Origin: an uncultured Candidatus Melainabacteria bacterium
GTDB lineage: Bacteria > Cyanobacteriota > Vampirovibrionia > Gastranaerophilales > Gastranaerophilaceae
NCBI GenBank assembly: GCA_947361615.1
Contig: CANAJP010000003.1
Location: forward strand, 17,432 to 81,431
DNA: 64,000 nt
Direction: 5' to 3'
How positions within the stretch are numbered: position 1 is the stretch's first letter; each line of letters begins with the position of its first letter. Below the pieces are notes generated by a model, which did no database searches, had not been told where the DNA came from, and was given only the letters and a program-made list of their open reading frames with translations. Positions 22,089 to 41,145 of the stretch are shown piece after piece. A program made the position numbers and the translations under genes.

Positions 22089-22928
22089 ATGAGCGAAAAA
22101 TTTTATCACGAAATAACACCGGCAGGCTTCGGTATTGCTATTAAGAAAAAAGACGTACTTTTTGAGGGGCAGTCAGATTTTCAAAAAGTTGAAGTTTTTG
22201 AAACAGACAGCGAACTCGGAAGAGTTTTAACGCTTGACGATTTGATGATGACAACCGAGGGTGATGAGTGGCACTATCACGAAATGATTGCACATATTCC
22301 GATGATGAACCACAAATGCCCTAAAACTGTTTTAGTTATCGGCGGCGGTGACGGCGGAACTGTCAGAGAAGTTCTCAAACACGACACTGTTGAAAAAGTT
22401 GTACTTTGCGAAATCGATGGTATGGTAATCGATGCTTGCAAAAAATTCTTACCTACAATCGCCTGCGAACTTGATAACCCTAAATGCGAAATCCTCGTTG
22501 AAGACGCTATCGAATACATCAAAGACAAGAAAAACATGTTTGATATCGTCCTTATCGACTCAACAGATCCGATGGGGCCTGGTGAAGGATTATTCACAGA
22601 AGAATTCTACACAAATGTTAAAGAATCTTTAAAAGAAGGCGGTATCGTTGCAGCACAATCAGAATCACCTGTTGTAAACAAAAAAGAAATCAAAAAAATG
22701 TATGATTTGTTGAAAAAAGTATTCCCGATTTGCTCAACATACACCTCAAACATTCCTACCTACCCGGGCGGTTACTGGGCATGGGCATATTGCTCAGAAA
22801 CAGTAAAACCTTTATCATACATTGATGAAGAACGCTGTGAAAAAATCACTAAAACTTGCAAAATCTATAACAAGGATTACCACCTTGCAAGATTTGCATT
22901 ACCAAACTATTTAAAAGAGTTATTATAA
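22089..22928 (+). CDS. speE: Spermidine synthase
   Basis: SpeE transfers aminopropyl from decarboxylated SAM to putrescine. The 279-residue product has the SAM-binding motif VIGGGDGGTVREVLKH, the EIDGMVIDACKKFLP segment and the DSTDPMGPGEGLFT substrate loop with catalytic Asp. The N-terminal strand domain (VEVFETDSELGRVLTLDDLMMTTEGDEWHYHEM) is typical. The length is normal. Partner genes such as speD or speA are not in the window. Confidence 0.95.
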   Translation: MSEKFYHEITPAGFGIAIKKKDVLFEGQSDFQKVEVFETDSELGRVLTLDDLMMTTEGDEWHYHEMIAHIPMMNHKCPKTVLVIGGGDGGTVREVLKHDTVEKVVLCEIDGMVIDACKKFLPTIACELDNPKCEILVEDAIEYIKDKKNMFDIVLIDSTDPMGPGEGLFTEEFYTNVKESLKEGGIVAAQSESPVVNKKEIKKMYDLLKKVFPICSTYTSNIPTYPGGYWAWAYCSETVKPLSYIDEERCEKITKTCKIYNKDYHLARFALPNYLKELL

Positions 22929-22940
22929 GGGAATAAATCT

Positions 22941-24971
22941 ATGTCATTTATCATTGCGATTATAGTTTTAAGCATATTAAAATTAACATTCACAATCGGG
23001 CGCTTTATCGCGGCCAAACGCCTTAAACTTCCGGTTGAAAAATTTGTCATCGGTATCGACTGGGGCAAACCAGTTTTCGCAAAGAAATTTAATGACACAG
23101 AACTTATAATCTATCCGCTGTTTTTCGGCGGGTACCTTGAATGTTCAGAAGAAAAATGCACAAAAGGTCAAAAAGCATTTTTAACATTTTCATCAGTCCT
23201 GATGATGATAATCTCAATGCTTATTATCGGACTAGTTGCAATAAATTACGTTCCGTCAGGAAAATATGACACAATAATCACAAACGCGCCTGAAACCTCA
23301 CAGTTTCAGGCTGGCGATAAAATTTTGAATGTCAACGGAACAAATATAACCGGCCCGAACACGGTCAAATCAATTATCAACAAAAAAAATACCGTACTTA
23401 AGGACTTAGGCTTTACTGATGAGCCTGAAAATTCTGTTGTTCAGGTTGAGAGAAACGGCGAAATAACTAATCTTAAATCCGCTTCTTTTGATAATATTCA
23501 GTATAGAGTAAGTACAATATACTCTCCAAAATCAGAAGTATTAAAAAGCCTTAAAAAGAATATGGCATTCAAATTTGAGAAGAAAAGTTTCACAAAAAAC
23601 TTAATCTCAATAATTGCTATGCTTGCATTAATCAGTATTCTCGTACTTGTTCACGAAGCCGGACATTTCTTAGCGGCAAAAATGTTCAAAATCAAAGTTG
23701 AACGTTTTGGATTCGGACTCCCATTCGGGCCTATACTGTGGCAAAAGCAGTGCGGCGAAACTCTGGTCGTTATTCACGCATTTTTGCTCGGGGGATATGT
23801 TTCATTCCCTGACGACGATAAAGATAATACGATGCCTAAAGATTCACCGGAAAGGTTTGCCAATAAACCGATTTATCAACGTTTAGTGGTTGTATCAGCA
23901 GGTGTTTTTGCAAACATCTTGTGCGCGATTTTCATCGTAATTCTGACGGCACTTATGTGGGGAAAACTTCCGACCGAAAACTACGACACATTTATTAAAG
24001 ACCTTAGTCCGAAAGACAACGCGGCTGTGACATCTTCCGGATTTAAAAAGGGCGATAAAGTCCTTGAAATCAACGGAAGCCCGATTAACAGCGCTTACGC
24101 ACTCCAACTTTACGCTATTAAAAGCAGAAAATTTGATGGAACAGTTTCGCTAGACGCAGTTAAAACAACACTTAAAAATCTGCAAAAACTCAACCCGAAA
24201 TTTACAGATGCAAAACTAATACCGGCAGGAACAATAATTAGACTTCCGAAAAGTTTATCAGAAGAAGAGGTTAAACTCACAGACGATATGCTTCGCGGTT
24301 ACGAACGTATAACCGACGACAAAATTTCTCTCAACGATCGTCAAAAAATGCTTCGTAACGCTGCACAAGGTAAAAATATTTATAAAACCGACGGGCTTAC
24401 AACTCTTGTGGACTTAGCGTTCGCCCTGAGTGATACTGCCAGCCCGATGAACATAAAAATAGAACGCAACGGCAAAACAATAGACCTAAAACCAATTTAT
24501 TCTAATGAAAAAGGCGTTATGGGGGTTGAACTTGACAAAAAACGCGTATTTGTTGAAACAAAAACATTCAAATCAGCTGTCACAGAAAGTTGGAATTACC
24601 TGTACAGCCAGACAAAAATGTTGTTAAAAGGCTTATGGCAACTATTCAGCGGCAAAGTTCCGCTAGACAATATGCACGGTGTTGTTGCTGTTGTAAAATA
24701 TGGCGGTGACGTAATCCAACAGGATGGATTCTGGCAAGGACTGCTTTTAACAGCATTAATTTCGCTCGATTTAGCAATCGTAAACTTCCTGCCGATACCA
24801 GCACTTGACGGTGGGCATGTCATGTTCCTTCTTATCGAAAAGCTTTACGGTAGACCGCTTGACGAAGAAATGGTAAACTCAATCGCAACCGCAGGGTTTA
24901 TGTTCCTGATATTGTTGATGGTAATAGTGCTTTATAACGACATAGTAGCACTGGCTTTACATAAAATTTAG
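22941..24971 (+). CDS. RseP-like site-2 intramembrane protease with a degenerate N-terminal duplicate
   Basis: At 676 residues it is far longer than the usual 350-450. The C-terminal part is a standard site-2 protease: HEAGH near residue 237, GGYVSFPDDD, a PDZ-like domain (SGFKKGDKVLEINGSPI) and NFLPIPALDGGH near 617. The first ~215 residues look like a second, degenerate copy of the same N-terminal module. RFIAAKRLKLPVEKFVIGIDWGKPVFAKK parallels HFLAAKMFKIKVERFGFGLPFGPILWQKQ, FFGGYLECSE parallels LLGGYVSFPD, and a PDZ-like FQAGDKILNVNGTNI follows. The first copy lacks HExxH (GR replaces GH), so it cannot be catalytic. It may act in substrate gating. Located in the inner membrane. Confidence 0.88.
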   Translation: MSFIIAIIVLSILKLTFTIGRFIAAKRLKLPVEKFVIGIDWGKPVFAKKFNDTELIIYPLFFGGYLECSEEKCTKGQKAFLTFSSVLMMIISMLIIGLVAINYVPSGKYDTIITNAPETSQFQAGDKILNVNGTNITGPNTVKSIINKKNTVLKDLGFTDEPENSVVQVERNGEITNLKSASFDNIQYRVSTIYSPKSEVLKSLKKNMAFKFEKKSFTKNLISIIAMLALISILVLVHEAGHFLAAKMFKIKVERFGFGLPFGPILWQKQCGETLVVIHAFLLGGYVSFPDDDKDNTMPKDSPERFANKPIYQRLVVVSAGVFANILCAIFIVILTALMWGKLPTENYDTFIKDLSPKDNAAVTSSGFKKGDKVLEINGSPINSAYALQLYAIKSRKFDGTVSLDAVKTTLKNLQKLNPKFTDAKLIPAGTIIRLPKSLSEEEVKLTDDMLRGYERITDDKISLNDRQKMLRNAAQGKNIYKTDGLTTLVDLAFALSDTASPMNIKIERNGKTIDLKPIYSNEKGVMGVELDKKRVFVETKTFKSAVTESWNYLYSQTKMLLKGLWQLFSGKVPLDNMHGVVAVVKYGGDVIQQDGFWQGLLLTALISLDLAIVNFLPIPALDGGHVMFLLIEKLYGRPLDEEMVNSIATAGFMFLILLMVIVLYNDIVALALHKI

Positions 24972-39913: not shown

Positions 39914-40009
39914 AATATTCCTCTTCTAACTAATATATAGAAACATGGTATTACGAAAACAGTTGATTTTAAATAGAATTATAAGTTATTTAAAGATAAA
40001 ATTAAACAC

Positions 40010-40036
40010 TTGAAAAAAATTTATGTTTGATATAAT
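40010..40036 (+). promoter_or_regulatory. Putative promoter of tRNA-Leu
   Basis: TTGAAA and TATAAT lie 15 bases apart, 17 bases before the mature tRNA 5' end. The -10 is perfect; the spacer is slightly short. Confidence 0.45.
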
Positions 40037-40053
40037 ATAAAGGAGCACTTCAT

Positions 40054-40139
40054 GCCGGAGTGATGGAATTGGTAGACGTGCCAGACTCAAAATCTGGTGA
40101 GGATCACACCTCGTGTCGGTTCGACCCCGACCTTCGGCA
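40054..40139 (+). tRNA. tRNA-Leu (anticodon CAA)
   Basis: The cloverleaf folds cleanly. The acceptor stem is GCCGGAG/CTTCGGC with A as discriminator base. The D-arm contains TGGTAGAC. The anticodon stem is CCAGA/TCTGG with loop CTCAAAA (anticodon CAA, reading UUG). A long class II variable arm (TGAGGATCACACCTCG) and the T-arm GTCGG-TTCGACC-CCGAC follow. The 3' CCA is not encoded. This is the only tRNA I found in the window. Confidence 0.95.
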
Positions 40140-40180
40140 AATAATAAGCCCTTCGTTTTTACGAGGGGCTTATTATTTTT
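40140..40180 (+). terminator. Intrinsic terminator after tRNA-Leu
   Basis: AATAATAAGCCCTTCG and CGAGGGGCTTATTATT form a long stem with one wobble, followed by six T. It begins directly at the tRNA 3' end. Confidence 0.85.
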
Positions 40181-40197
40181 TGTGGGCGGGGGAGAAC

Positions 40198-40315
40198 CGT
40201 GTCGGTTCGGAGAATTTTCGGTAGGGTGAAGCGGAGCGAAACCCGTAACTTGTCCAGAAGCGTGGTTCTGGACAAAGCCGAATAATCCGAAAGAACCCCG
40301 ACCTTCGGCAAATAA
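40198..40315 (+). repeat. Split second copy of the tRNA-Leu 3' end with 85-bp palindromic insert
   Basis: CGTGTCGGTTCG (40198-40209) and ACCCCGACCTTCGGCAAATAA (40295-40315) are together identical to the contiguous 33 bases 40112-40144 of tRNA-Leu and its 3' flank. Between them lie 85 bases (40210-40294) holding the perfect stem TTGTCCAGAA-gcgtgg-TTCTGGACAA, a GGGT...ACCC stem, and outer TTCGG/CCGAA repeats. The split falls exactly in the T-loop. It could be a remnant of tRNA-targeted integration or a small palindromic element. Confidence 0.75.
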
Positions 40316-40350
40316 AAGAGGGATACCGATGGTATCCCTCTTTTATTTTT
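40311..40350. terminator. Bidirectional intrinsic terminator
   Basis: AATAAAAGAGGGATACC-gat-GGTATCCCTCTTTTATT is a perfect 17-bp stem followed by TTTATTG on the plus side. On the minus strand it can end the lysozyme-like gene, which stops 10 bases away. Confidence 0.8.
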
Positions 40351-40359
40351 ATTGAAATA

Positions 40360-41145
40360 TTATTTCTTCGCCATTACTGGATTTAGGATTGTTGTTTTTA
40401 TATTATTTAATACCATTTGCAAATCTGTTTTGGTAATTTTTAAATCCTTGTCATAATCTAATGGCTTATTAGCTTCATATAATGTTTTAGTAATTGAATC
40501 TGTTGCACTTGTTAAAAATGGTTTATTTACTCGTGCGGGAGTATAAAAAAGTGCATAAAGCTCGCCGCCCGTAAGTTTCCCTTTGTGCTTCCTCATATAA
40601 GTATTTTTCATTGTCAATATATAATTTCTTACATATGGCATTTGCTCTGCACGCGATAACGATAGGAATTTTTCCATTGAAATTTCACTACTAAGCTTGA
40701 TTGCATCCTTGCCTAATTGCCCAAGACCAGCAAAACTTCCGTTTTTCACATCGGGTTCAAACTTTGACTCTTTGTATAAAAGAGCGGTTAAATCTTCAGC
40801 TTCACAGTTTACTTTTTCTGAGGTCTTAATAATTTCGCTGACAAATTCATCCTTTACGTCCGGGACTACATTTGCTACCATTTTTTTTATCCGTTGAAAT
40901 TCAACAGTTTCAATAATATCCCCAAAAATATTTTCCATAGACTTTACAGCCTGTTTTTGGATATTAGTCTCAACAGGCATTCTTTCGGGTGCATGACTTG
41001 CTATTGGCGCAGTTAAGGCGTGTGCTGCAATCATTATCGCAGGATATGTTTTTTTTATTATAGTTTTTGGCGTGGCGCAAATTCTCTTTAATGTTCCAAA
41101 CCTATTTACGCCTATATTAGAGTTGGTAATTCGTGGTAAATGCAT
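40360..41145 (-). CDS. Putative lysozyme/lytic-transglycosylase-like protein
   Basis: The 261-residue product has a basic N-terminus with RFGTLKRI, then a hydrophobic stretch AIMIAAHALTAPIASHA that could be a late signal or anchor. A C-terminal domain follows with DLTALLYKESKFEPDVKNGSFAGLGQLGKDAI. The E-S-x-F ... GLGQL arrangement is that of SLT/goose-lysozyme catalytic cores (usually ESxF...GLMQI), with the Glu of YKES as likely acid. ELYALFYTPARV resembles the later core. If correct it cleaves peptidoglycan outside the inner membrane. Confidence 0.6.
   Translation of the reverse strand: MHLPRITNSNIGVNRFGTLKRICATPKTIIKKTYPAIMIAAHALTAPIASHAPERMPVETNIQKQAVKSMENIFGDIIETVEFQRIKKMVANVVPDVKDEFVSEIIKTSEKVNCEAEDLTALLYKESKFEPDVKNGSFAGLGQLGKDAIKLSSEISMEKFLSLSRAEQMPYVRNYILTMKNTYMRKHKGKLTGGELYALFYTPARVNKPFLTSATDSITKTLYEANKPLDYDKDLKITKTDLQMVLNNIKTTILNPVMAKK

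Follow-up and report, generated by a model that had tools for sequence, protein, structure and literature searches.

Site-2 proteases (S2P) of the RseP type (M50B; TIGR00054), such as RseP of E. coli and A. aeolicus and RasP of B. subtilis, are the closest described relatives of the protein analysed here. Known controls on site-2 proteases are size exclusion by PDZ domains and separate inhibitors; BofA, to our knowledge, is not itself an S2P homologue. Outside this family, the iRhoms are eukaryotic and are not known to be fused to an active enzyme. These rhomboid pseudoproteases are described in PMC3149277 as inactive intramembrane protease homologues with regulatory roles. Inhibition of the S2P SpoIVFB by BofA and SpoIVFA relies on a membrane segment that controls access to the active site (PMC9042235), and among inactive S2P homologues only EGY3 of plants was counted in a 2022 paper (PMC9355673).

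The locus described here lies in a stretch of 64,000 nucleotides (hereafter, the window) from a genome near Candidatus Gastranaerophilus phascolarctosicola Zag_221, in a genus of gut bacteria with kinship to the cyanobacteria, and encodes an RseP that is preceded in the same chain by a second, partial S2P (Table 1). The active half is like the RseP proteins named above in its motifs, and the fusion differs from them by the extra inactive N-terminal module, which comprises TM1, a membrane re-entrant (MRE) loop, TM2 and a PDZ domain. In contrast to the PDZ tandem of E. coli RseP, the active half has a single PDZ with an insert of about 100 amino acids. The N-terminal module (hereafter, the dead module) resembles EGY3 of plant chloroplasts, an S2P homologue regarded as inactive; EGY3 is, however, a separate thylakoid protein, whereas the dead module is an incomplete bacterial copy in covalent linkage with an active S2P. 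The single chain likewise distinguishes the fusion from BofA, SpoIVFA and SpoIVFB, which are separate proteins, and the iRhoms differ from the dead module in belonging to the rhomboid (serine) family. No description of a dead and a live S2P in tandem in one chain was found in the open-licence literature, and the strong preservation of the dead copy hints at an inbuilt regulator, a type that has not been described in the RseP family. It would add a bacterial pseudoprotease to a family in which only EGY3 had been counted (PMC9355673), and it bears on the open question of how site-2 proteases avoid cutting the wrong membrane protein. The chain with a live and a dead half, a member of the genus without the dead PDZ (G146) and close relatives without the dead module form a natural series suited to finding out which parts of the S2P membrane domain serve substrate binding and which serve cutting alone.

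Table 1. Features of the fusion gene and its 5' flank (window positions)
Feature	Residues	Position	Strand	Remarks
Ribosome-binding site AAGGGA of the fusion		22927..22932	+	8 bases before ATG, overlapping the speE stop; from sequence
Predicted structured mRNA segment		22933..23134	+	low synonymous change in six species; suggestive only
Whole fusion reading frame	676 aa	22941..24971	+	no internal stop; pseudoprotease module and active RseP
Dead S2P module	1-214	22941..23582	+	
Dead TM1	2-27	22944..23021	+	AF2 helix 2-27
FTIGR replacing HExxH	17-21	22989..23003	+	gapless alignment with single-copy RseP
Dead MRE beta-sheet	32-68	23034..23144	+	VIG for GFG, GGYLE retained
Dead TM2	75-103	23163..23249	+	faster evolving
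Dead PDZ	about 107-196	23259..23528	+	missing from G146
Linker, low model confidence	197-218	23529..23594	+	pLDDT below 50 for 196-217
Active RseP half and stop	219-676	23595..24971	+	TIGR00054 283 bits; orthologous to single RseP of ~455 aa
HEAGH zinc-binding/catalytic motif	238-242	23652..23666	+	H238, E239, H242 invariant
Active-half PDZ		23976..24515	+	split by insert of ~100 aa at about 24096-24404
LDG, third zinc ligand	622-624	24804..24812	+	invariant

The two halves align with each other in BLASTP at 29% identity over 161 amino acids (E=3e-15), and the dead module alone scores above the gathering score of Pfam Peptidase_M50 (PF02163; 32.3 versus 27.2 bits, 8e-8, residues 6-206). It also matches TIGR00054 at 1.4e-12 over residues 3-172, although at 47.2 bits it falls below the cut-off of that model and, with neither HExxH nor LDG, is not an RseP by itself. 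The segment MSFIIAIIVLSILKLTFTIGRFIAAK of the dead module aligns without gaps to MSIIIMILLLSVLILVHEAGHFLAAK, the start of single-copy RseP, and in this alignment FTIGR takes the place of HEAGH with all three catalytic residues replaced. At the HExxH position, every one of the seven genomes of the genus has FTIGR, except for one species with YTIGQ, so the loss can be put down neither to faulty assembly nor to a recent mutation. An assembly error or frameshift as the source of the fusion itself is ruled out by its presence in seven separate genomes. The preliminary description had proposed an inactive S2P-like module, lacking HExxH, joined to an active RseP, and on both counts it holds. Its wording that the protease is fused to a copy of itself stands for TM1, the GGY loop, TM2 and the PDZ; the copy is not a full one, as TM3, TM4 and LDG are missing; TM2 has no AG..N motif, and the loop that follows the MRE is shorter by about 12 residues. 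The dead copy retains the four-stranded MRE beta-loop with its GGY, whereas the substrate-binding motif GFG is VIG. Loss of the zinc-binding and catalytic residues with the fold kept is the mark of an S2P pseudoprotease; the residues are gone in seven of seven genomes and the predicted model matches RseP structures. The N-terminus of the fusion is thus an S2P-like module, and its inactivity is predicted from the lost catalytic residues.

The active half carries HEAGH, GFG, GGYV, a PDZ, NFLPIPALDG and LDGGH, and the fusion as a whole, at 283 bits, exceeds the curated cut-off of the TIGR00054 equivalog (147.55 bits). H238, E239, H242, L622, D623 and G624 are invariant among 40 proteins. To judge from its sequence, this half is an ordinary RseP-type site-2 protease with all catalytic residues, and a known member of the family. 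The insert in its PDZ is conserved across the RseP proteins of the order, and the stretch LNPKFTDAKLIPAGTIIRLP within it looks LysM-like but, at 14.2 bits, scores under the Pfam cut-off of 20.9.

A ribosome-binding site of the AAGG/AGGG type at the start of the fusion is retained in six close species. Separate translation of an active RseP from an internal ATG at residue 208 is ruled out, as this ATG is not common to the other species. A start at M227 is shared but is likewise rejected, as it lacks a ribosome-binding site, in contrast to the ATG of the fusion, and would shorten TM1.

In the full-length AF2 model, the dead half consists of a helix (2-27), four strands (34-37, 46-50, 53-57 and 64-67) and a second helix (75-102), in the same order as the elements of the active half. 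A second AF2 model was built from the seven dead-half sequences only, to keep it free of any pull from active RseP rows. Its pLDDT is about 74-84 over TM1-MRE-TM2, and each of the six PDB structures that it matches significantly is an RseP or a RasP (E 3e-9 to 2e-7), the best being RseP of A. aeolicus, K. koreensis and E. coli. The TM-scores, at 0.29-0.38 of the query, are modest owing to the uncertain orientation of the PDZ relative to the membrane part. An S2P-like fold of the N-terminal half, on which the preliminary description had staked its reading beforehand, is borne out by these matches, of which the best reaches E=3e-9. The full-length model has a pTM of 0.58, with linker pLDDT below 50 and low confidence between the modules.

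All seven genomes of the genus, which is of the Candidatus Gastranaerophilus type, have the fusion, and none of the 376 other genomes (51 genera) searched in the order does. At the threshold used (E=1e-14), the search of the 383 genomes with the dead module returned, beyond the genus, only G318, whose match is an ordinary RseP of 468 amino acids. With the full protein as query against 146 genomes, those outside the genus have a single RseP that starts at query residue about 215-222. In a phylum-wide TIGR00054 search, open frames above 520 amino acids were confined to this genus among the matches listed. The phylogenetic profile that had been proposed is thereby supplied, and the suspicion that the architecture lies outside classical RseP is upheld within the order and, phylum-wide, among the best matches listed. 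A public record labelled Fusobacterium sp. (JAMPIJ010000030.1, L032) has the fusion at 86% identity in the same gene order, and appears to be a mislabelled MAG of the fusion genus. One genome of another genus (G105, g20) has a second S2P-like gene besides RseP, with a frame of 407 amino acids (G105:C1:168801-169313).

The gene order HIT-speE-rseP is common to members of the genus and to L008/L009, in which RseP is single-copy, and the syntenic gene in the rest of the order is an ordinary RseP of about 455 amino acids. The conserved order indicates that the fusion gene is an orthologue of single-copy rseP with a 5' extension. In a phylogenetic tree, the seven dead modules group as a single clade, with a very long stem (4.8 changes per column) and, among six species, short tips, which points to rapid change followed by little. 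With that long branch, descent of the dead copy from the RseP of the genus itself is neither favoured nor rejected by the tree (AU p of about 0.49). As an indirect sign on origin, the dead PDZ retains PSGKYD, as in other genera, where the active half has PTENYD. A mobile or repeated element is ruled out, since the 5' segment of 261 bp occurs just once in the genome that carries it; its sole other trace is one short partial match of 46 bp elsewhere in G047.

The dead module is under purifying selection at the protein level, strongest on TM1 and the MRE. Among six species, residues 1-66 are 94-100% identical with dN/dS of 0-0.07, and they are at least as conserved as the active TM1-MRE, whose identity is 90-94% where these pairs include the window protein. 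Leaving aside the closest pair, identity over dead TM2 and PDZ is 58-92%, with dN/dS of about 0.07-0.16 at unsaturated synonymous sites (PDZ about 0.13-0.16). The distant seventh member, G146 (L035, 594 amino acids), keeps dead TM1-MRE-TM2 and has lost the dead PDZ. Its synonymous sites are saturated (pS 0.90) and yet 77% of dead residues 1-66 are kept, which shows that selection acts on the protein. As the dead PDZ evolves faster and was lost in G146, the conserved core is TM1 with the MRE loop; an asymmetric PDZ pair, put forward earlier as a possible function, is therefore not a conserved one. K14, T18, G38, W41, K43 and GGYLE (63-67) are invariant in all seven dead modules, and R21 is Q in G146. 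From helix periodicity, K14, T18 and R21 would share one face of dead TM1, matching H17, E18 and H21 of the enzyme.

The same 5' segment has features that could act at the level of the mRNA. Within codons 1-66, 29 of the 58 codons whose amino acid is invariant in six species are also invariant as codons; for the rest of the gene the figure is 65 of 365 (P=5e-7). Synonymous divergence is also moderate in the neighbours speE, HIT and aspS, so part of this constraint may be regional; in the more distant L006, pS of the 5' segment is 0.29, below the 0.55 of speE. The fold predicted for the 230 nt around the start is more stable than those of dinucleotide shuffles (z -3.8; -2.0 to -4.7 across six species), and against protein-preserving synonymous resampling the six values are -4.4, -4.2, -2.7, -2.2, -1.8 and -1.6. 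In a predicted helix, the start-codon region (22942-22948) pairs with 23091-23097 at a probability above 0.94 in all six species; both helix and synonymous constraint are absent from G146. Double changes occur in 4 of 62 pairs (covariation term +0.45), and covariation gives almost no support because both helix arms are invariant in the six species. The starts of HIT and gcvT reach z -2.7 and -1.6 under synonymous resampling, no Rfam family scores above threshold, and other segments of the window fold as extremely. The most stable predicted folding of the window is at 40000-40400, on both strands (z -5.9 to -7.2). Taken together, these data are suggestive of a second, RNA-level constraint on the first 66 codons, to which the 5' conservation may in part be due. 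Recombination between species as the cause of the low synonymous change is disfavoured, as identity falls exactly at the ATG and 5' divergence is nearly equal for close and distant pairs. An antisense reading frame over the 5' end is open in the six close species, but it lies in the frame whose wobble positions coincide with those of the gene, and conservation of the sense frame is enough to account for its own.

Our preferred reading, held tentatively, is that the dead half may be a pseudoprotease module that works in cis, retaining or gating substrate at the active half. In the ancestor of the genus, rseP would have gained an in-frame second copy of an RseP TM1-MRE-TM2-PDZ segment at its 5' end, most simply its own, and the added copy would have lost zinc binding, diverged fast and then become fixed as a pseudoprotease module. 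As the number of added helices is even, the topology of RseP would be kept and the active half would stay functional. The dead helices and re-entrant beta-sheet would be placed in the membrane beside the active half, where the retained GGY edge strand and the polar TM1 face (K14/T18/R21) would hold or gate a substrate transmembrane segment in cis; alternatively, the module would bind to the active half and control access to it. Whether the effect is to assist or to restrain is hypothetical, as is the substrate. With catalysis gone and both the polar TM1 face and the MRE kept, a non-catalytic module that holds substrate or sets access in cis appears to be the simplest reading. In E. coli RseP, the transmembrane segment of the substrate is bound by the MRE loop, through what is proposed to be strand addition, and residues 69 and 71 make contact with it (PMC4597795); the equivalent strand of the dead module is GGYLE, which is invariant. 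GFG, in the region before this loop, is important for substrate binding in E. coli RseP (PMC12067869), and its change to VIG argues against a full substrate site in the dead module. It is conceivable, if doubtful, that the fusion is a built-in pseudoprotease subunit in a double sense, the dead half being a cis exosite or gate that alters what or when RseP cuts and the 5' segment doubling as an mRNA structure that controls translation.

The main rival to this cis-acting module is an autoinhibitory plug, in which dead TM1 or the re-entrant loop would occupy or cover the active-site cleft until displaced by a signal. The precedent is SpoIVFB, held off by a BofA membrane segment in its cleft (PMC9042235), and K14 and R21, on one face of dead TM1, would require contact with protein or water in place of lipid; K14 is invariant, as is T18. 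We nonetheless consider a plug unlikely, as no contact between the modules is confidently predicted in the full-length model and retention of the whole TM1-MRE-TM2 fold exceeds what a plug requires. A structural role, with the extra hairpin aiding insertion, stability or pseudo-dimer formation of RseP and substrate choice unaffected, seems unlikely too: the near-invariance of TM1 and MRE, polar face and GGYLE strand included, goes beyond the needs of a generic hairpin, and sister genera manage without the module, even though the even helix number preserves topology and the dead half tolerates change in TM2 and PDZ, the latter dispensable in G146.

The codon invariance, the fold stability against resampling and the start helix in six species would all be accounted for if the 5' segment were kept mainly as an mRNA element that sequesters the start codon and controls rseP translation, the dead protein being a by-product. 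This is very improbable, as it leaves the S2P fold unexplained and G146 keeps 77% of the residues with neither helix nor synonymous constraint; the near absence of covariation and the values at the HIT and gcvT starts also weigh against it. Least credible is a neutral or decaying remnant of a partial tandem duplication, with which the very long branch and the single loss of the dead PDZ would agree, but which the low dN/dS of both TM1-MRE and PDZ and the intact module in all seven genomes disfavour.

As for substrates of the proposed cis-acting module, the genome has two pairs of ECF sigma and membrane anti-sigma factors (G000:C8:40141-40851 and G000:C45:1027-1842; L080, L082), and both anti-sigma factors are candidate RseP substrates. 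Neither of the two is specific to the fusion, and since both are also present in genera without it, neither explains it; one is conserved across the family and the second across the order. In one anti-sigma factor, the transmembrane segment lies at the extreme C-terminus, with only about 5 residues beyond, and this protein might for that reason be an RseP substrate without site-1 cleavage.
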